A stretch of DNA of 42,926 bases from Acidobacteriota bacterium. GTDB taxonomy: Bacteria; Acidobacteriota; Thermoanaerobaculia; Multivoradales; J023. Positions 8,457 to 24,130 of the stretch are shown in pieces; the stretch's first letter is position 1, and the number at the start of each line of letters is the position of its first letter. The stretch is from assembly GCA_029263395.1 (NCBI GenBank), contig JAJCXO010000054.1, positions 1 through 42,926 on the forward strand. The letters run 5' to 3'. The translations under genes and the position numbers were made by a program. Under the pieces are notes generated by a model. It saw only the letters and a program-made list of their open reading frames with translations, was not told where the DNA came from and made no database searches.

Positions 8457-9028
8457 TTACTTGCTGCCGGTCAGCGTCCCTCGTATCGCGTCGAGGCGTT
8501 CATCAGCGATACACACCGCCTCGTAGGCGGATATCTGTTGCAGCCGCTGCCAGAGATCGGCAAACCGCAAGCCGGATTCGCGCCACTCTTCGGTCGACTC
8601 GAAGTTATTGAAATACGGCCGTAAGTCGGCGCCTGGTACCGCTGCACAATGCGAACACCGCACGGCGCTCGAAACGATAGTCGAGCAGATTCCAAAACGG
8701 CGAATAGACCTTGCGGGTTGATACAGATTCCCACAGATTCGAGTGCGGCCCAGTCTGTCGAGATCTCGCCCCACTTAGGTACAGGCCCATTCTGAGCCCC
8801 CCAGCGCGGCGTATGGCTGACCGGCGTCAGTACCGCATCGTCGGCCTGGACTACCGGCATACTTGGCGCCAAGACGTCAACGTCGAGGCGTCGCACGTCG
8901 CCAGCCTCACGGGGCAACAGGGCGCCCACGGAAAAAACCCACCGGTTGCCGTGCTGGTCTAACGCGCAAGCTGTAGTTATTAGCATTCTGCTTTTCATCC
9001 TATCGCCGAAATTTTGCCAAGTCATCAC
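8457..9028 (-). pseudogene. Hypothetical gene with probable frameshift(s)
   Basis: A GTG at 9028, preceded by AAGGAG with 8-base spacing, opens a frame reading NRWVFSVGALLPREAGDVRR and continuing to about residue 130 (GICINPQGLFAVLESA). The last third in that frame is Pro/Ser/Arg-rich and looks non-coding. A second frame over the same bases gives an amphipathic, protein-like tail (FESTEEWRESGLRFADLW, YEAVCIADERLDAIRG) ending at 8457. A short third-frame stretch (FWNLLDYRFERRAVFAL) between them also looks coding. The simplest reading is one gene of about 190 codons with one or two indels between 8590 and 8720. Function unknown. Confidence 0.45.
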
Positions 9029-9223
9029 AAGTCGATCTCCTTCCCCTTCCCTTACGGCCGGGGCAATATATTTATGGATAGATCGAGCTTAGCGAATAAA
9101 TTCCTCCATAACAGATCAATTTACCATTCCAAACGGTCGGTAAATCAGGAGTCCACGACTGTACAATATGCAAATAGGGCGTTTCTACGAGAAATCGCTT
9201 ACCTACCGGTAGGACTGTCGACT

Positions 9224-10328
9224 TTATTTCTTGCGCGATCGACAACAGCCGCCAGGGCCGATGCGAGACTCGACCATCTGGCGAGTCTTCGTCGAGATCT
9301 CCTCGCTAAGCTCACCCGCTTGGATCGCCTCAATCCAGATTCTGAGTACAGCGATAGCTTCGCGGTCTGACTTCAGCGCTTGGACATGCTCAAACGCATC
9401 TTCAGCAACTGCGGCAGCTGCGTCGAAGTCTCGAAAGTAGCAATGCGCGGCGGCAAGGTCGATGGAAACCAACACGATCTCATAGGGTAGGGCCAGTCGG
9501 ACGAATCCACGCCGAGATATTTCTAGAGCGCGGATAGCTCTTGGATGCATCCCAAGCTTCCACCACAACAGGCCCTCGACCCAACCGAGTTTATGCCGTG
9601 GCACACCATCAACTCTCGGCCTTAATAGCGTGCGCGCCTCACGCACCTGAGCAAGGCCACCTTCTAGAGCTGAATGAATTGGCATCGAGGATAAAGTTGC
9701 GTGGGCGAGATTGTGCACAGCTGTATGATGGATGCGGGCGCATCTTGCTGAGAGTTTGGGTCGAGAGAGTGCTATTGCTTCACCGTGGCAAGGAATAGCC
9801 TCAGAAAATTTCTTACTTTCGTTTAGTACGTAGCCGAATCTAGCCAAAGCCTCGGCGAGATCACCAGTATTCCCCTCCTGCTTTCTAAAGGTAGTAACAG
9901 CAGATCGGGCCAAATCGTCTGCCTCATCTAGCCGTTGCTGACAAGCTCTCAACATCGCCTTTCGGCTACTAATCTCAGCATGTACGGTAAGAGGGACAGC
10001 TCTAGCTAGAGCTGGCTATCTTGTGCGCAGTGCAATAGCTGAGCTCGGCCTCGCTGTATCGGCCTGTCGATCTGAGCGCGCCAGCCAACACAGCATGGCC
10101 CATTGCCAATCCCTCAGACCATTCAGGGGTAACTAACAGAGCCAAATCTGGAGCGACCTCGGCCCAGCGGAACCCATTCCAAGGATTGTCAAATAACAGT
10201 CCGTCGACGTACTCAAGATACAGGCAAAAAAAGCTCTTTCGGCGATAGGCTCGACGCCTAAGTAAATGCGCCGGATCGTCGGACATTTCACGAAGCAGAC
10301 GTTTTGCGCGGCTCTTTGACTGACTCAC
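9224..10328 (-). pseudogene. TPR-repeat protein, single frameshift
   Basis: Two minus-strand frames join into one TPR protein. The N-terminal part (GTG at 10328) reads SDDPAHLLRRRAYRRKSFF and VLAGALRSTGRYSEAELSY and stops at about 10002. The next frame carries ARAVPLTVHAEISSRKAMLR and then MLRACQQRLDEADDLARSAV through to 9224. The break falls in a palindromic AGCTCTAGCTAGAGCT tract near 10,000-10,015. The joined product would be about 367 residues of helical repeats with no catalytic domain, so it is probably a scaffold or regulatory protein. It is preceded by an intrinsic terminator and a short ORF. Whether the shift is biological or a sequencing indel cannot be told here. Confidence 0.65.
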
Positions 10329-10346
10329 GATGTTGAGAGATTAGAC

Positions 10347-10380
10347 AAAAAAGGGCACGCAGGGGAAGACCTGCGCGCCC
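10347..10380 (-). terminator. Rho-independent terminator / possible attenuator
   Basis: On the minus strand a GC-rich hairpin (stem GGGCGCGCAGG with CCTGCGTGCCC, one mismatch, 6-base loop) is followed by TTTTTT. It lies 20 nt downstream of the 19-codon ORF at 10400-10459 and 19 nt upstream of the TPR gene start, so it either ends the short transcript or attenuates the TPR gene. Confidence 0.75.
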
Positions 10381-10399
10381 AAAAAGCAACTCAAGAAAT

Positions 10400-10459
10400 C
10401 TAACCGGATGGTATGAGCGATGGGCCGCTCCCTGCACGTACTGCTGTAGAAACAAGCAT
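10400..10459 (-). CDS. Candidate 19-aa short ORF before terminator
   Basis: ATG at 10459 is preceded by AAGGGG at good spacing, and the peptide MLVSTAVRAGSGPSLIPSG ends at TAG. Size, a strong ribosome-binding site and the terminator just downstream suggest a leader or small signalling peptide. No family is recognised and translation is unproven. Confidence 0.35.
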   Translation of the reverse strand: MLVSTAVRAGSGPSLIPSG

Positions 10460-10605
10460 TCCGCACCCCTTCTGATCGCGATCACCGGTCGCGAAATTGC
10501 GACTCGGTGTCAAACGAACCACTTTTCGGAGTTTTAGCCTACCGATCGGTCGGCTGTTTTTCGTAGAAATGCCGTAACTCTTCTCGGTAGTCTTTTCCCC
10601 TACCG

Positions 10606-10953
10606 ATGAACAGCAGGAAGACAAGCCCCGAAACGACGCAAGCTCTACTCGCCAGCCTTGAAACGCTCGCGAGTGAGTGCCCGTCTGATGCTCTCTTGAG
10701 CTACACCGTCACGACGTGGCTCAACAGCCCAGCTCGGCCCGATCTCTTGGCACTGTCCGCTCGATGGGGGATCGAGGATGAGCAACTCGCGGCCACCGTG
10801 GCGAGCACGGCCACAGGGCTCGACACCATCGAACGGCGGCGAGCTGGCTGGCGAACATCTCGCCAAGTCATCGGCGACCAGGCGCCGGAGAGCGTAAAAA
10901 AGTGTGGGGCAATCCGGATGGCGGACCATCACTCCGCATTTTGGAGAGGATGA
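10606..10953 (+). CDS. Hypothetical protein, 3' end replaced by repeat sequence
   Basis: The first 95 residues are helical and protein-like (TQALLASLETLASECPSDAL, DLLALSARWGIEDEQLAATV), with a codon pattern typical of coding DNA. The last 20 residues are encoded by the 24-bp IS terminal repeat at 10888 and adjacent bases, so the native C-terminus has been lost. No Shine-Dalgarno sequence is evident before the ATG. No domain recognised. Confidence 0.4.
   Translation: MNSRKTSPETTQALLASLETLASECPSDALLSYTVTTWLNSPARPDLLALSARWGIEDEQLAATVASTATGLDTIERRRAGWRTSRQVIGDQAPESVKKCGAIRMADHHSAFWRG
10888..10911 (+). repeat. 24-bp IS terminal repeat, copy 2
   Basis: Identical in sequence to the reverse complement of 6891-6914. 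It truncates the gene at 10606. Confidence 0.75.
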
Positions 10954-11043
10954 AAATCCGGGGGCACAATGGTCGTACGGTGCTCTCGGAACCCATGTGC
11001 CAGTCGCCTGAATCGAAAAGTGCCCCGGCTTTTTCATGCTCTC
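10944..11043. mobile_element. MITE-like element, copy A (100 bp)
   Basis: Both ends carry inward-facing versions of the same terminal motif: GAGAGGATGAAAATCCGGGG at left, and at right the reverse complement of GAGAGCATGAAAAAGCCGGG. The whole segment matches copy B at 13137-13235 in inverted orientation with few mismatches. There is no coding capacity. The ends resemble the 24-bp ISKra4-associated repeat, so it is likely a non-autonomous derivative. Confidence 0.75.
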
Positions 11044-11063
11044 CTAGTTGGACCAGCGGGGGC

Positions 11064-11155
11064 ATTTGAAGTCGAGTAGCCCGAGGGGATTTCTCCCCCC
11101 AGGCCCTCACAGATCCGGACGTGCGGAACTCCCGCATCCGGCTCCTTGGGTCACG
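11064..11155 (-). ncRNA. Group II intron 3' end (domains V and VI), fragment
   Basis: On the minus strand, 11144 down to 11111 is a 34-nt domain V-like hairpin: GAGCCGGATGCGG, a GAGT loop, then CCGCACGTCCGGATCT. It has the AGC triad at the start and the two-base bulge expected of the catalytic domain. It is followed by GTGAGGGCC and a GC-rich stem (11064-11110) that fits domain VI and the 3' boundary near CTCGAC. No intron-encoded reverse transcriptase or 5' domains are present upstream, where the peptidase-like gene begins its 3' end at 11193. This is a truncated, non-splicing remnant. Confidence 0.7.
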
Positions 11156-11192
11156 GATTCGCTCCTCGGCGATAGGGGGTGAGCAATCCGCT

Positions 11193-12998
11193 TCATGGCA
11201 CGGCATGGTGCTCTTCCAGCCAGCTCAGGCGTGCCGCAAGACGATCGCGTAGCGCCTGATCACCGGTGATTGCGATCGCCTCATCGAAGAATCTCAAGGC
11301 CTCTTCGATCCGGCCCTCGTCGAACGCCTTGCCGGCTGCTTGCAGGGCCTCGGCACGGTCGATCTCTTCTAGCGCCCAGAGCCGCGCCTCCTCGGCATCG
11401 CGGCCGATGATCGATCGTTCCAGGCGTCGCGCGCGGGCGAAGTCCTCGTTCTTGAGATACAGCTGAATCAAGATCGAGCGCAACTCGTCGCGATCCGGCA
11501 GCCAGCCCCGCGCCTTTTGCAGGGCGACGATGCCCGGTTGCGGATCGACCTCGCCGAAACGATACGCATAGCCCAAGAGCACCCGCGGCTCGGCGAATTC
11601 GCGATCGCGATCGACCGCTCCTCGGAGCACTTCTCGAGCCGTAGCGGCGAGCTCGTCGACTGCCAATATTGCCTCGTCACACGTCAGCGCGTTGACTGGT
11701 AAGGGTGCGGCGTTCACCGGCAACGGTCCGCCGAGGAGGATTCCCCGCGCCGCTTCCGGCACGATACGAGCGAGCAGATGCCGACCGTATCGGAGGTAGG
11801 TCAATGCATCCGCCGGACCGATCTCGAGTGCATCCTGGAAGAACAGCTCGGCCTCTTCCAGGCGCCCATCTAACGCGCGCAGGAGAGCCAGGCCGGCGAG
11901 CGCTTCGGCGTGCTCAGGCCGTCGTTCGAGCGCTTCGACGAAGAAACCCTCGGCACCTTCGAGGTGCCCCAGCTGCAGCAACAAGTTGCCGAGATGAAAC
12001 AACACCTCGTCCGGCGGCAGCGGCTCACTGACCGGTTCCTCCGGCGTTTCGAGCTCGCCCAGATCGAGACGCGTCACCGGGAAGTCTTCGCCGAGCTCAT
12101 AGGCGCCCGGCGTCGCCGGCAGCGCCGACTCGGCATGGGCGCGCAGCGTCTCCTCGAGTTGGTCGAGATGGAGATCGAAGGCGTTCTCGAAGGCGTCATC
12201 GGGGTCTTCGCCGTTGCGCAGGCGAACCAGGTAGTCGGCGAGCTGGTCGAGGCGCTCGGTGCCACTAGTGAGCAGGTAGTGCACCAAGGTCCATGACATG
12301 GCGTAGAAACCGTCGGCACGGCGAATGTGGGAGCCGGACTCACCGGCCAACACTTCGCGTAGTGAGAAGTCGTGTGACAGAAACCGGACTTTGCGGTCTG
12401 CGTCGTCAGCTTGCAGCCAGCGGGCATGGCGCAAAATCGGCCGGCCGAGATAGACCGAATCATCTTCGATAGCGAGGGTGCTGTAGTACTCCGCCATCCC
12501 TTCGTGGAACCAGCGCGGCACCCGGTCAAAGTTGTGCGCTACCAGGTAGTGCACGAACTCGTGATAGATCACTGCGAGCCCCGGCCCCTCCCCGACGCTG
12601 GCGTCGAGGGTCAGGAAGTTGCGATCCGGGTGTCTCAGGAAGTACCCCTGAGTCGAGCCGTTCGACCCATCCGGAATCGGCTTGAACGGCGCATAGCTGT
12701 GACGATCGCGAAAAGCGATGAACGTTGTCGGCACCACCGAGCGTAGCTCGAGCTGCGGAGCCAGGGTGGCGAAGGCACTCCGAAAAACCTCCAGTCGACG
12801 AACCAGCTCTTCCCCTCTCTCAGGATCCGCGTCGGTTAGCAGGACGAAGTGGCGCGAGCTCACCGAGTGCCAGGAGCCCAATTCGATCTCGCGCTGCTGT
12901 CCCGCGAGCGGTGGAGCCAACCCAACGGCCAACAGGGCGGTGATCCAAGGGAAGGTGAAGTGTCGGAGAAGAGGCGAAATACAACGTAATGACAACAT
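11193..12998 (-). CDS. Secreted gluzincin-type peptidase-like TPR protein, 601 aa
   Basis: The ATG at 12998 follows AGGAGG with about 10-base spacing and starts a signal peptide ending near LAGQ (about residue 33). The N-terminal domain (about 40-300) contains HEFVH (H146 to H150) followed by FHEGMAEYYS, a zinc-metallopeptidase arrangement of HExxH plus a downstream Glu ligand, as in DUF1570-type proteins. The C-terminal half (about 330-590) is TPR repeats (LFHLGNLLLQLGHLEGAEGF, EEALRFFDEAIAI). A 7-residue tandem duplication, PLPVNAA then PLPVNAL, sits between repeats. The gene and an intron remnant lie between inverted MITE copies A and B, so the block may have moved or been inverted as a unit. 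Substrate unknown; location outside the cytoplasmic membrane. Confidence 0.8.
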   Translation of the reverse strand: MLSLRCISPLLRHFTFPWITALLAVGLAPPLAGQQREIELGSWHSVSSRHFVLLTDADPERGEELVRRLEVFRSAFATLAPQLELRSVVPTTFIAFRDRHSYAPFKPIPDGSNGSTQGYFLRHPDRNFLTLDASVGEGPGLAVIYHEFVHYLVAHNFDRVPRWFHEGMAEYYSTLAIEDDSVYLGRPILRHARWLQADDADRKVRFLSHDFSLREVLAGESGSHIRRADGFYAMSWTLVHYLLTSGTERLDQLADYLVRLRNGEDPDDAFENAFDLHLDQLEETLRAHAESALPATPGAYELGEDFPVTRLDLGELETPEEPVSEPLPPDEVLFHLGNLLLQLGHLEGAEGFFVEALERRPEHAEALAGLALLRALDGRLEEAELFFQDALEIGPADALTYLRYGRHLLARIVPEAARGILLGGPLPVNAAPLPVNALTCDEAILAVDELAATAREVLRGAVDRDREFAEPRVLLGYAYRFGEVDPQPGIVALQKARGWLPDRDELRSILIQLYLKNEDFARARRLERSIIGRDAEEARLWALEEIDRAEALQAAGKAFDEGRIEEALRFFDEAIAITGDQALRDRLAARLSWLEEHHAVP

Positions 12999-13103
12999 GG
13001 CAAGAGATCCTCCTCGAAGGCTACCGTCATCGACAGCAGGGCCATCATAACACGACGCGCCAACGCGCGAGGTCACTCGAAGTGTCTGAATCGATCCCAA
13101 TAG

Positions 13104-13127
13104 GAGAGCATAAAAAAGTGTGGGGCA
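13104..13127 (+). repeat. 24-bp IS terminal repeat, copy 3
   Basis: One mismatch from copies at 6891 and 10888. It lies 9 bp before MITE copy B, mirroring the arrangement at copy A. Confidence 0.75.
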
Positions 13128-13136
13128 CCTGGCTCC

Positions 13137-13235
13137 GAGAGCATGAAAAAGCCGAGGCACTTTTGATTCAGGCGGCAGGCACATGGGTTCCGAGAGCACC
13201 GTACGACCATTGTGCCCCCGGATTTTCATGCTCTC
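13137..13235. mobile_element. MITE-like element, copy B (99 bp)
   Basis: Inverted counterpart of 10944-11043 with terminal GAGAGCATGAAAA on both ends facing inward. The two copies bracket about 2.1 kb containing the intron fragment and the peptidase-like gene. Confidence 0.75.
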
Positions 13236-18187: not shown

Positions 18188-20041
18188 TCAGGTTTCGATG
18201 TTGAGCGGCCACTGATAACCCTGCGGTGAGGCTGGTGAGTATTCTTGGATGAATTCGATCATCGCCTTGCGGAATAGCACCAGTGCTTTGTTGCGCTCGT
18301 CGTCCATGCCGTTCGGGAAGAACAGGTCTTCGTCTAGACCGGCGATCGGAATGAAGGGCTCGTAGGGTACTGAGAACGAGAACGTGAAATAGAACGTCAC
18401 CATACCGGCAATGGTCCCGGTGGTGGGCATCCGACGGAGCAATTCACGGGTGGTCATGGTGCTGTCCGGCGCTGGGATCGATGCGTCCTGCAGGCAAGGC
18501 GGATAGTTGCTGACGAAGGTGAGGCCCGGGTTGGCGGACTTACTGAGTCGTGAGTTGCCATGGGCGGTGATGCGGTACAGGAGACTCTGCAAGACCTTGT
18601 TCAAGGCTGCCTTGCTGTCCATGGTCGGCAAACCACGGAGGTTGCCGCCGTGCGGGTCGCCGGATCTTCGGATCCACTCCTGCAACTGTTCGTCGTCTTT
18701 GACGTCCTGGTCGGTGGCGTAGGTGGTGTCCACAAACACCTGGGTGTAGTTGCCGACCATGTCCCAGATCTGCAGCAGGTGACGGACGAAAGCGTACTTG
18801 TCCCACGGCTCCTTGTCGGTAAAGTCGGCTTCTTTGATCCCGAGTCGCTCGAGCTCGGCGATGGGATCGTCGTCAAAGTAGCTGCGCCCGACTGCGAAGT
18901 GATCACAAAGCTTGAGGAAGCGCTGCGGGGTGTTGATTGCCGTCGGCGGTGCCACGCTCTTCCACAACACCAGCAGGACCGTGTCGAAACCAATCAGGTA
19001 TTTGGACTGCGGGGCCAACAACTGGAAGACCGGGTGGCTATGGGAAAGACACTTGAACATCGTGTACTGCATGGCTGCTGTCACAATGTGCCAGTGATAA
19101 ACATGGCCTAGCCAGATGCCGTAGACGGTGAGCGACACCTTGGCCGCCTGCAAGGCGTAGATCCACGCCGAAGGTGTTGCCGAGCCGCGAACATAAACTT
19201 GTTTGTCAGCCCCTAAGAAGCCCGCTACCCGAACAGCGATCGGTGTCAGATCCTTGGTCTTCGGATCCTGTTCGAGCAAGGTCACCGTCCCAGGTGTGAA
19301 CCGTTGCAGACCGTCGACCTCACGGGGCTTGAAGCCATCGAAGATCGTCATGTCGATCGCGTAGAGCAGGCCCTTTGCTTCGAGATCGTCCCATCGGTCT
19401 TCCCAAACATCGACAAACTCAATGCGTGGATCAGGCATATGGGACGAGCCGAGTTTTTGCGCCACCAACAGGTTGTAGGACAAGCCATACTCGGAGATTG
19501 TTGGCCAGAATTGGCGGGTTGCTTCGTCGGCGTCGGTCAACGAGGCGGCAAACTTTGGCAGCAGATTTTTGGAGCTGTCGTAAACGTCCGGCATCACGGT
19601 CCAGGAGATCGAGAACTGCTCGGGCTCTTCGAGGGGAAGCTTGGTCAGCGGGTCGCCCTCATTGTCGCGTTCGTCGCCAGCGAGGTTGAGGGATGGCCCG
19701 AATAAACCGTCGACGAAACGTCTGAAGAATCCCGACTGCTTCTTGTCGCCGAAGATCTGCTCACTCATGCTCGCCAAGAGCTTCAGGTTGTCGCCATGGG
19801 AGAGCGCTCTCTCGAGGTCACTGCGGGCGTCCGCGTCCTCGGCGGTCAGGTTCTTGCCAAAAAGAAAGTTGTACCCCGTGGTCTCGGCGCCGTCGATGGT
19901 GTACAGCGTGGTCAGGCCTTGTTTCGCTTGCTTAGTCTCGATTTCACGTTCGCCGAGCTTGAGCAGTGTCTTCAGAGCATCGTCGACGTCGACGGGAACC
20001 GCTGGGATGTTGTGAAAGGAAATGACTGGAAGCTTATGCAT
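18188..20041 (-). CDS. Lipoxygenase family protein, 617 aa
   Basis: Predicted non-heme iron dioxygenase that would insert O2 into a polyunsaturated fatty acid to give a hydroperoxide. The iron-binding helix is recognised as HVYHWH (H313 and H318, the H-x4-H pair), followed after 17 residues by HPVFQLLAPQ (H336-P337), the conserved HPxxxLLxP block of lipoxygenases. A further His (H494, in ITAHGNS) is near where the third His ligand should lie. The N-terminal 150 residues replace the PLAT domain of plant enzymes, as in other bacterial members. The C-terminus ends WPLNIET rather than the usual Ile that ligates iron, so the metal site may differ. It is divergent from the P450 at 20253, separated by 211 bp. 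Confidence 0.8.
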   Translation of the reverse strand: MHKLPVISFHNIPAVPVDVDDALKTLLKLGEREIETKQAKQGLTTLYTIDGAETTGYNFLFGKNLTAEDADARSDLERALSHGDNLKLLASMSEQIFGDKKQSGFFRRFVDGLFGPSLNLAGDERDNEGDPLTKLPLEEPEQFSISWTVMPDVYDSSKNLLPKFAASLTDADEATRQFWPTISEYGLSYNLLVAQKLGSSHMPDPRIEFVDVWEDRWDDLEAKGLLYAIDMTIFDGFKPREVDGLQRFTPGTVTLLEQDPKTKDLTPIAVRVAGFLGADKQVYVRGSATPSAWIYALQAAKVSLTVYGIWLGHVYHWHIVTAAMQYTMFKCLSHSHPVFQLLAPQSKYLIGFDTVLLVLWKSVAPPTAINTPQRFLKLCDHFAVGRSYFDDDPIAELERLGIKEADFTDKEPWDKYAFVRHLLQIWDMVGNYTQVFVDTTYATDQDVKDDEQLQEWIRRSGDPHGGNLRGLPTMDSKAALNKVLQSLLYRITAHGNSRLSKSANPGLTFVSNYPPCLQDASIPAPDSTMTTRELLRRMPTTGTIAGMVTFYFTFSFSVPYEPFIPIAGLDEDLFFPNGMDDERNKALVLFRKAMIEFIQEYSPASPQGYQWPLNIET

Positions 20042-20252
20042 GGTCGTCTCTGCGCCTCCCGTAGGGTCGTGAATAGTTCAGGTTCAAAAGGCTAACATGA
20101 ATCCTTCGGGGCCGGCGATCGGCCCAAGCTGCCACCAGACTGTGCTGCCACCAGACGGTAGTCGTGGCGTCTGTCCCGTGGCGCCGGTATCGTATATCCT
20201 CTATCAAAACTATAGTTCAACGCATTGGGGCGGTGCTTAACTAGGAGGAGCC
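20042..20252. promoter_or_regulatory. Divergent promoter region, lipoxygenase / P450
   Basis: This 211-bp region lies between the two divergent start codons and must hold both promoters. An A/T-rich stretch, CTCTATCAAAACTATAGTTC, about 35 bases before the P450 start is the best -10 candidate. GCTGCCACCAGAC is duplicated with a 16-bp period at 20128-20156. AGGAGG directly before the P450 start is a strong ribosome-binding site. Confidence 0.45.
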
Positions 20253-21569
20253 ATGAGCGAGACGCGAGAGATACCTTGCCGCGGCGCTAGGATGTCTGCC
20301 TTGCGGAGTGTCCTTCAATTCCGGGATTACTTCGAGCACATGGGCAGCTGGGTCGACAAGGCCAAAGCCGAGGCCGGTGCGCCGATCTTCTTTGCACACC
20401 TGGGGATGCCTAGCATCGTGGTGACTGACGTGGTTGCCGCGGCAAACATCTTCGCAGCCCCCAAGGACGTCGTCGATCGTATCGGTCAACCAGGTTTTGG
20501 ACCGATCGAGCTGCGCGAGCGATTGACCGGGGGGATCTTGCCGGCGGTGGTTTCACACGGTGAGAAGAATGCCAGTACGCGCCGTTTTCTCGACGCGATG
20601 CTCGAGGATGCTCGTGGCAGATTCGATGAGATGCTGACGAAGTCACTCGAAGACATCGCGGCCGAGTGGGTCGCCAGCGGGGGCGTGACGCTCAACGCCG
20701 TGAGTGGTGTCAGCGGCAAGATGACCGGACGATGGCTACTGGACATCGATCTCGACGCCGCGGAGGTCAGCGAGTGGCCCGGGCTGACTTTTGGCATCAA
20801 GACCAGCTCGCGGCTGGTCAATTTTGTGCTCGGTACCCTCAATCGCCCCAAAAAATCTGCCGTCGAGATGTCCGACCGCCTGGTCGAGACATTCCGCAAA
20901 GCGCCGCGACTCGACCACATCTGCCGCATCGGCAAGGATGCGGGGCTGGATGAAGAAGAGACGTTGCGCCAGATGGCCTTCTTCACCCTGTTCAACACCG
21001 GGGCCCTCGGTCGGGTGGCTGGTGGAGCCTTGGCCCAGCTGAAGTTGACCCCCGAATGGGCGACGGCGATTCGCAACGAGCTCGGTGACAAGCAACTTGT
21101 GCCGAGCGCCATGAATGAGTTCCCGATCCTCGACAAAGTTTTCACCGAGTGCTGTCGGCTGTTCGGGCGCCCACGAGCGTACTACCGCAGGGCACTCAAA
21201 GACTTCGATCTTCCCTGTGGCGATGGCCATATTTATCGTGTGCTCGAGGGCGACACGTTGCTCCTGTCGATGCGCTCCATTCATCACGACGAGCGGATGT
21301 TTACGGACGGTCACTCCTTCAATCCGAAGCGTTTCGACGACAACCCGAAGCTGTTGCACTATGTATTCATCTTCGGCCCACACGACAAACCCTACCGTTG
21401 CGCTCCGGCCGATCTCGGAATGGCGGATGTTTTCTTCAAATACGTGCTGGGACGCCTGGTTCAAGGTTACACCTGGGATATCTCGCCGCCACCGGAGATC
21501 CACGCGGACAATGTCGACGACGTTGCACCGGAGGATGTGAGCCTGGTGAATTTCAGGCCGCGATCCTAA
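20253..21569 (+). CDS. CYP74-like cytochrome P450, 438 aa
   Basis: Heme-thiolate protein. The K-helix ExxR is E299-R302 (TECCRLFGRP), and the heme loop is FGPHDKPYRCAPADLG with C383 as the thiolate ligand. The loop and what follows (MADVFFKYVLGRL) resemble CYP74 enzymes (allene oxide synthase, hydroperoxide lyase) more than monooxygenases. The I-helix reads LFNTGALGRVAGG (F247-N248): the acid-Thr pair used for O2 activation is absent, and the Asn aligns with the catalytic Asn of CYP74 FNxxGG motifs. It therefore probably acts on a preformed hydroperoxide without a redox partner. The divergent lipoxygenase would supply that substrate. The start is fixed by AGGAGG five to nine bases upstream. 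Confidence 0.75.
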   Translation: MSETREIPCRGARMSALRSVLQFRDYFEHMGSWVDKAKAEAGAPIFFAHLGMPSIVVTDVVAAANIFAAPKDVVDRIGQPGFGPIELRERLTGGILPAVVSHGEKNASTRRFLDAMLEDARGRFDEMLTKSLEDIAAEWVASGGVTLNAVSGVSGKMTGRWLLDIDLDAAEVSEWPGLTFGIKTSSRLVNFVLGTLNRPKKSAVEMSDRLVETFRKAPRLDHICRIGKDAGLDEEETLRQMAFFTLFNTGALGRVAGGALAQLKLTPEWATAIRNELGDKQLVPSAMNEFPILDKVFTECCRLFGRPRAYYRRALKDFDLPCGDGHIYRVLEGDTLLLSMRSIHHDERMFTDGHSFNPKRFDDNPKLLHYVFIFGPHDKPYRCAPADLGMADVFFKYVLGRLVQGYTWDISPPPEIHADNVDDVAPEDVSLVNFRPRS

Positions 21570-23356: not shown

Positions 23357-24130
23357 TCAACGGAAGCTGTCTCGAGTGGATGATGGTCTCAGTTGAGATT
23401 CGAGGGCCTGAAGCGAGTCGTGGCTCCACTCGGTGATCCGTTCCCAGGTTTGGAGGGGTTCGTCGCCCGCAAACTGCGCCTGGAATCGATCGTCGCAGTG
23501 GGTGGGTTGACCAAACAACACCCGGACGTGATGGCCGCGCTGGGGTGCTTTACGGTGGGGCGCGACGTGCTGCATGCCGAGATGGTAAAAGGGCAGGGTG
23601 AGGGGCTTCGCTTCGGCAATCAAGCGACCGATCCCGGTCTTGAAAGGCTGGCGCAGCCATCCCTCTGGGTCGCGACTGGCGCCACCTTCGGGGAAGATGT
23701 GGACCCACGCACCTTCGCGCAGCTGCTGACTGAGAAAGTGTAGACCGGGTTGATCGAGCCCGCCGCCGCGTACGATCGGTACACATTTGCCAGCACTGAA
23801 GATGAAGCCGCTCAGCCTTCTGTTGAAGAGCTTGAGAGCATCCGCCGCCACCCAGCGGATGCGGTCGTAAGGCATCGCCGCTAGCCCGAAGTTGCAGACC
23901 AGCAGCGGATCATCGAGTCGTGAGACGTGATTGCTGAAGGTCAGCAAGCCTCGATCACCACGGTGCTGTAAGGCGTTCAGGCGGTCGAGCCCGTCGACGG
24001 ACAGGTGGTTCCACCGCGTCATCACATGCTGCGACAGACGGATGACCAACCAGGCGATTAGACGGTTGGTTCTCGTATTACCGGGATGCCAGCGTCCGAT
24101 AGCCTCCCGTTCCCGCGGCTGCAGCTCCAT
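23357..24130 (-). CDS. PlsC/tafazzin-type acyltransferase, 257 aa
   Basis: Phospholipid/glycerolipid acyltransferase. The HX4D motif appears as FSNHVSRLDDPLL (about residue 66), in the NHxSxxDDP form typical of tafazzins. The second block is VPIVRGGGLDQPG, the third HIFPEGGASRDPEG (about 145), and the fourth is LPFYHLGM (about 178). The N-terminal amphipathic stretch (RLIAWLVIRLSQHVM) would associate with the cytoplasmic membrane. Substrates are likely lysophospholipids and acyl donors; exact specificity is not predictable. There is no strong Shine-Dalgarno close to the ATG. Same strand as the flanking PEGA and PQQ genes. Confidence 0.82.
   Translation of the reverse strand: MELQPREREAIGRWHPGNTRTNRLIAWLVIRLSQHVMTRWNHLSVDGLDRLNALQHRGDRGLLTFSNHVSRLDDPLLVCNFGLAAMPYDRIRWVAADALKLFNRRLSGFIFSAGKCVPIVRGGGLDQPGLHFLSQQLREGAWVHIFPEGGASRDPEGWLRQPFKTGIGRLIAEAKPLTLPFYHLGMQHVAPHRKAPQRGHHVRVLFGQPTHCDDRFQAQFAGDEPLQTWERITEWSHDSLQALESQLRPSSTRDSFR

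Follow-up and report, generated by a model that had tools for sequence, protein, structure and literature searches.

A lipoxygenase-fold protein predicted to lack the canonical iron site, encoded beside a CYP74/CYP8A-like cytochrome P450 in an acidobacterial genome

Results

Two divergent genes at the locus

Positions 1 to 42,926 of contig JAJCXO010000054.1 of an Acidobacteriota bacterium (assembly GCA_029263395.1), referred to here as the window, carry two intact and divergent genes, one for a protein of the lipoxygenase (LOX) fold and one for a cytochrome P450, with 211 bp between their starts (Table 1). An initial annotation of this DNA had claimed LOX-type and P450 genes on opposite strands at this spacing, and the open reading frames (ORFs) and the Pfam matches bear it out. 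Both proteins are weak passes of the Pfam gathering cut-offs, and the best stretch of the LOX match covers 115 of the 673 profile positions. The GC contents of the two genes are 57% and 60%, and that of the window is 60%. The genome (G000) is 10.7 Mb in size and 96% complete; the LOX gene is its sole PF00305 match, and PF00067 has seven matches at six places, the window P450 among them. The region between the divergent starts could possibly serve as a promoter region common to both genes.

Table 1. Positions of the two genes and of their diagnostic residues in the window
Feature	Position	Strand	Evidence
Lipoxygenase-fold protein, 617 aa	18188..20041	(-)	PF00305, 43.6 bits (gathering cut-off 23.6); best PDB match ALOX15B, 3e-17; full-length relatives P0003, P0004
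Thr617 codon, C-terminal residue, Ile expected	18191..18193	(-)	C-termini compared
H494-G-x-S-R498, region of the third iron His	18548..18562	(-)	MAFFT, one-residue insert; Arg498 at the Asn/His/Ser place if H494 is the third His
His318 codon, column of the conserved third motif His	19088..19090	(-)	MAFFT alignment, register scan
His313 codon, column of the second iron His	19103..19105	(-)	ALOX15B and MAFFT alignments, register scan
Gly308 codon, column of the first iron His	19118..19120	(-)	gapless against ALOX15B and 7 phylum LOX ORFs; Gly also in P0003, P0004
Intergenic region between divergent starts, 211 bp	20042..20252	.	
Cytochrome P450, 438 aa, CYP74/CYP8A-like	20253..21569	(+)	PF00067, 39.7 bits (gathering cut-off 22.8); PDB matches led by prostacyclin synthase; ortholog P0005 in G001, 53%
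F247-N248, I-helix, at CYP74A F-N321	20991..20996	(+)	alignment to 2rcm; PMC13049297 (excerpt)
ExxR, E299-C-C-R302	21147..21158	(+)	sequence alignment
Cys383, predicted heme thiolate ligand	21399..21401	(+)	sequence alignment

Iron ligands of the lipoxygenase-fold protein

Iron defines lipoxygenases, and the classical LOX motif consists of five His residues (H-x4-H-x4-H-x17-H-x8-H). In the phmmer alignment of the window LOX with human ALOX15B, no gap falls in this region, and G308, H313 and H318 are aligned with the first iron His, the second iron His and the third His, respectively. A MAFFT alignment with seven LOX ORFs from five genomes of the phylum gives the identical register. The register was also scanned by scoring a 53-residue segment with BLOSUM62 against six LOXs with a complete motif, at offsets from -8 to +8. 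The G308-H313-H318 register scored +41.8 and all 16 other offsets were negative, and the two full-length relatives P0003 and P0004 behaved alike. Pairs among the six complete-motif LOXs average +152 on this scale, thus the subfamily to which the window LOX belongs is distant from them. H313, H318 and the HPVFQLLAPQ stretch named in the initial annotation are all present, but its reading of H313-x4-H318 as the iron pair is out of register by the ALOX15B alignment, the MAFFT alignment and the register scan alike; the offset that would make these residues the iron pair scored -41.0, and this candidate was rejected. A four-residue deletion was ruled out by the alignment, which is gapless from W293. 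The column of H318 is that of a conserved non-ligand His, the third of the five-His motif.

The five motif positions read G-H-H-H-Q in the window LOX and likewise in both full-length relatives, whereas six of the seven comparison LOXs read H-H-H-H-H and the remaining one (L022) reads S-H-H-H-H. The first-ligand column is therefore Gly in all three full-length members of the subfamily and His in 6/7 phylum LOXs, and the last motif His is replaced by Gln345 in the window LOX. At the C-terminal side, MAFFT sets H494 one residue out of the column of the third iron His, and the residue four further is Arg498; this HGxSR arrangement is typical of the subfamily. No Asn, His or Ser fourth ligand is evident in the window LOX by sequence alignment. 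The C-termini of the subfamily are IET, IET and VET (Thr in 3/3), and VET is also found in a fragmentary member (G021), while the comparison LOXs end in INI, INV or ISI, with Ile or Val in 7/7. Thr617 still supplies a C-terminal carboxylate. Among the five ligands of the window LOX, two are clearly altered, H313 is retained and two are uncertain. A catalytic LOX with an iron site, as initially proposed, does not agree with Gly308 in place of the first iron His and Thr617 in place of the C-terminal Ile, and the window LOX is predicted to be without the canonical iron site.

L022, the comparison LOX in which Ser replaces the first iron His, is a second LOX (G422 C5:45578-46129 and around) on a contig common with a normal LOX (L019). 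It retains the other motif His residues and the C-terminal Ile; judging from these residues, a single iron ligand was lost here independently.

Distribution of the LOX subfamily

Full-length relatives were found in Bacteroidota. One is on plasmid pAT1 of Aureibacter tunicatorum (L016; Cytophagales) with 44% identity to the window LOX, and the other (P0004) is on a contig of an uncultured Aquimarina (L017:9905-11821; Flavobacteriales) with 47% identity. The three full-length members, two of them from Bacteroidota, are 44-54% identical to each other. These relatives were the only ones recovered in the collection scans, Aquimarina from the genome contigs and Aureibacter from the plasmids, and no LOX relative was found in the viral contigs and phages scanned. 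In a survey of the class, this LOX type was present in 2/148 genomes, i.e., the window's own and G021, in which a 6.9-kb contig carries a C-terminal fragment. Distant LOXs in which the motif is complete occur in three other genomes of the class (G006, G490 and G491). When a two-row LOX profile was run against 396 genomes of the phylum, four matched, namely the window's genome and three with distant LOXs. Bacterial LOXs are rare in general, being found in <0.5% of species according to an excerpt of PMC6612559.

The window, Cytophagales and Flavobacteriales members share identical substitutions at 44-54% identity, which argues for selection and against decay. A decaying pseudogene was rejected as a candidate, as the frame is intact and the substitutions are common to the relatives, which are 44-49% identical to the window LOX. 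The LOX with a putatively missing iron site is a conserved subfamily, not a product of decay.

The relatives differ in some respects. P0004 has an extra N-terminal stretch resembling a membrane anchor, and the window protein is without such a stretch. On pAT1 (8915-13202), the LOX-like gene is flanked by genes for an AraC regulator and a nitric oxide-inducible flavohemoprotein; its product is annotated as a "lipoxygenase family protein."

Motifs and placement of the P450

The features claimed for the P450, i.e., C383, ExxR, a missing acid-Thr pair and FN at the catalytic Asn of CYP74, were all found by alignment and by comparison to 22 P450s from the same genome and from the phylum, many of which are near-duplicates. 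The I-helix stretch FFTLFN248TGA aligns with FATCFN321TWGG of plant allene oxide synthase (CYP74A, 2rcm), without gaps over that part of the helix. The acid and the Thr are both replaced in the two orthologs known (FN248TGA in the window, FNSKA in the congener G001), whereas Thr is present in 22/22 and the acid in 21/22 of the comparators. The window P450 has FN where AG is expected. In plant allene oxide synthase this Asn contacts the peroxide, according to excerpts of PMC13049297 and PMC6627107. The latter excerpt also describes a nine-residue insertion in the Cys loop as characteristic of CYP74. Such an insert is absent from the window P450, in which the stretch up to the Cys does not exceed that of the 22 comparators in length; a two-residue insert follows the Cys. 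At the probable F/L toggle the window P450 has Ile/Leu.

When the window P450 alone was searched against PDB, two prostacyclin synthases came first (2.8e-5 and 3e-5). With a two-sequence profile, prostacyclin synthase (3.8e-6 and 4.1e-6) was followed by CYP74A (2.2e-5, two entries). In a tree of 174 columns, built with 10 of the 22 comparators and with fragments as PDB rows, the two P450 orthologs grouped with CYP74A and CYP8A1 (support 67/75), apart from 11 monooxygenase-like rows. A firm place among O2-activating monooxygenases, which would have spoken against the initial annotation, was thus not found, though the grouping with CYP74A and CYP8A1 is weak. The identity to CYP74A 2rcm, the sole CYP74 member compared, is 30% over 136 aligned residues in the C-terminal half. 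Membership in the CYP74 family corresponds to >40% identity to its members (PMC10813956, in excerpt), a threshold that the window P450 does not reach in this one comparison. Because the nine-residue Cys-loop insert is absent, we refer to the window P450 as CYP74/CYP8A-like. It is probably a peroxide-isomerising P450, CYP74/CYP8A in character and not CYP74 by definition, and its motifs make a self-sufficient peroxide isomerase or lyase the most likely function.

The side-by-side arrangement

Orthologs of the P450 are present in 2/148 genomes of the class, the window's and that of the congener G001 (53% identical). A P450 search of 347 genomes of the phylum gave 920 bits for the window and 37 for the next best, and a scan of plasmids returned one weak match, in Halobellus (24%, covering 68% of the query). 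Both genes occur together only in the window's genome (1/148). In G001, which is 86% complete, neither the genome nor the set of ORFs in the 18 kb around its P450 gave a LOX match. Conversely, G021 has the LOX fragment and no P450 ortholog, nor is there a P450 nearby on its 6.9-kb contig. Plasmid pAT1 is without a P450, nor do the ORFs annotated or listed in the 10-kb flanks of the LOX gene in Aureibacter and Aquimarina include one. The expectation of a conserved LOX-P450 pairing in relatives is not borne out by these distributions, with the P450 alone in G001 and this LOX type alone in G021; the side-by-side arrangement is known from one genome, and a functional link between the two proteins is possible but unsupported.

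Pfam identified no obvious oxylipin partner among ten neighboring ORFs, which encode S1 domain, metallophosphatase, PQQ propeller, GIDE, TPR, PEGA, deaminase/phosphorylase, MarR and ATPase proteins; the single lipid gene among them is a PF01553 acyltransferase (23357-24130). A larger oxylipin cluster is accordingly unsupported by the ten ORFs scanned.

Polyunsaturated fatty acid synthase genes

A polyunsaturated fatty acid (PUFA) synthase cluster is present elsewhere in the genome (L056, contig C59, 7354-19380), with pfaD, then pfaA, then a gene for a ketosynthase protein that is cut by the contig end. PfaD scores 642 bits against a cut-off of 449, and PfaA 1846 bits against 1010, the latter containing KS, AT, three phosphopantetheine sites, KR and a DH-type domain. 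At E <= 1e-250, a threshold of our own choosing, PfaA was found in 7/148 genomes of the class, 4 of which are above the curated cut-off. Within the window's family (seven genomes), pfaA is present in each of the three that encode a LOX or this P450 (G000, G001 and G006) and in none of the other four (P = 0.029, Fisher's exact test, post hoc), and PfaD is distributed in the same way. At the class level, pfaA is present in 3/6 LOX or P450 carriers versus 4/142 other genomes (P = 0.0012, Fisher's exact test, post hoc). PfaD is also found in G422, a genome with LOXs, and was not found in G021, G490, G491 and G384. The PUFA synthase genes make endogenous PUFA likely in the window's bacterium.

The same genome has many very long ORFs of polyketide synthase type, up to 11071 codons, which suggests a large repertoire of secondary metabolites.

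Discussion

The explanation that we put forward, with belief and doubt about evenly divided, is that the locus encodes two diverged oxylipin-type proteins, a P450 peroxide isomerase or lyase and a LOX-fold protein with a dismantled iron site, in a cell with its own PUFA supply. It builds on the domain identities, the ligand substitutions and their conservation, Asn248, the loss of the acid-Thr pair and the PUFA synthase genes, all read from sequence, from which we infer the chemistry, the substrates, a salt bridge and any functional link between the proteins. The PUFA synthase of the cell would supply PUFA. The P450 would bind a fatty-acid (hydro)peroxide, with Asn248 of the I-helix positioning the distal oxygen above the Cys383-heme; the O-O bond would be cleaved and the radical would rearrange without O2 or a reductase. 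The LOX-fold protein would most likely form no hydroperoxide by the usual lipoxygenase chemistry, and would instead bind PUFA, oxidised or not, in the role of carrier, sensor or isomerase. With the metal gone, a possible stabilising contact would be a salt bridge between Arg498 and the C-terminal carboxylate. A more specific form of this explanation is held only tentatively and is on balance doubtful. It proposes a LOX-fold subfamily with a protein-only center (Gly308, Arg498 and the C-terminal Thr) whose role is to carry or sense PUFA or hydroperoxide, or to isomerise it without a cofactor, next to a non-CYP74 peroxide-isomerase P450 in a PUFA-making bacterium.

The initial annotation had proposed a route from hydroperoxide to oxylipin, in which an active LOX makes fatty-acid hydroperoxides and the CYP74-like P450 turns them into oxylipins. 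The divergent neighboring genes, a Lipoxygenase family score above the cut-off, the CYP74-like I-helix and the PUFA synthase in the genome would all fit such a route. It is unsupported, however, by a LOX with Gly at the first iron His, Thr for the C-terminal Ile and no evident fourth ligand, and by a pair that occurs in one class genome while the congener has the P450 without this LOX; we regard the route as quite unlikely. An intermediate possibility is that the LOX-like protein is an active but atypical dioxygenase or hydroperoxide isomerase, whose rearranged metal site consists of H313, H494 and the C-terminal carboxylate, with H318 as a possible addition. H313, H318 and H494 are kept in 3/3 full-length members, and the C-terminus lines up with the C-termini of normal LOXs, but the columns of H313, H318 and H336 are also His in 7/7 comparison LOXs, so that their conservation is nothing special, and a helix in normal register on both sides would leave little room for a slid site. 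Such a site therefore appears unlikely to us.

As for the P450, it might be an ordinary monooxygenase whose I-helix is atypical and whose substrate is unrelated, its position next to the LOX gene being due to chance. This would agree with the rank of monooxygenases near or above CYP74A in the PDB searches, with the absent Cys-loop insert and with the lack of a conserved pair. Replacement of both the proton-delivery acid and the Thr in the two orthologs, together with FN where AG is expected, makes it improbable. Several observations nevertheless weigh against the peroxide isomerase and dismantled LOX that we favor. When the window P450 is searched alone, CYP74A comes no higher than seventh among the PDB sequences listed (0.0017), after monooxygenases such as ferruginol synthase (0.00024) and CYP51 (0.00037), and with the two-sequence profile a monooxygenase is close behind it (4.1e-5 vs 2.2e-5). 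The grouping with CYP74A and CYP8A1 (67/75) is weakly supported and involves long branches and short fragments, and in some peroxide-splitting P450s the Asn is dispensable (PMC13049297, in excerpt). The LOX alignment by MAFFT is ambiguous by one to two residues near H494. AlphaFold models, made from one sequence for the P450 and two for the LOX, have a mean predicted local distance difference test score of 35.6 and 37.0, respectively, and are unusable, which leaves room for an unusual LOX metal site. The association with pfa pools three kinds of gene (this LOX type, other LOXs and this P450) and includes two congeners, and at the class level three of the six LOX or P450 carriers are without pfaA at the threshold used.

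If the proposed explanation is true, a LOX subfamily that occurs across bacterial orders without iron ligands would represent a natural metal-free lipoxygenase fold, a means of asking what function the fold has when its usual chemistry is missing. The subfamily would also be a caution against labelling such genes lipoxygenases, as in the Aureibacter annotation. The P450 would be a further peroxide-isomerase-like enzyme, here in a bacterium that has a PUFA synthase, so that bacterial oxylipin formation could be tested within a single organism. Among the top matches in the open-access literature, we found neither a bacterial LOX subfamily without the iron site nor this LOX-P450 pair described.

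Comparison with known systems

The window LOX resembles the lipoxygenases of PF00305, e.g., human ALOX15B and bacterial LOXs, in its family score, the gapless His-rich helix, the second iron His and the HPxxxLLxP motif, but differs in Gly for the first iron His, Thr for the C-terminal Ile and Gln345 for the last motif His. In cyanobacterial fusions (Anabaena and Acaryochloris), a catalase-type heme domain is joined to an active LOX. The window locus is similar in that a bacterial LOX lies beside a heme protein that may convert hydroperoxides, whereas here the P450 is separate and the LOX is predicted to be without an iron site. The P450 shares with the plant CYP74 enzymes (allene oxide synthase and hydroperoxide lyase) the FN at the catalytic Asn, the missing acid-Thr pair and the gapless I-helix part; unlike CYP74A, to which it is 28-30% identical when only the aligned residues of the C-terminal half are counted, it is without the nine-residue Cys-loop insert. 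A bacterial member of the CYP74 clan is MnHPL of Methylobacterium nodulans, according to an excerpt of PMC10813956. Prostacyclin synthase (CYP8A1) is the best PDB match of the window P450 in both searches and is, likewise, a peroxide isomerase without the normal acid-Thr pair, but the match spans ~150 residues and Asn287 of CYP8A1 takes a different position within the motif (TQGNMG; PMC13049297, in excerpt).

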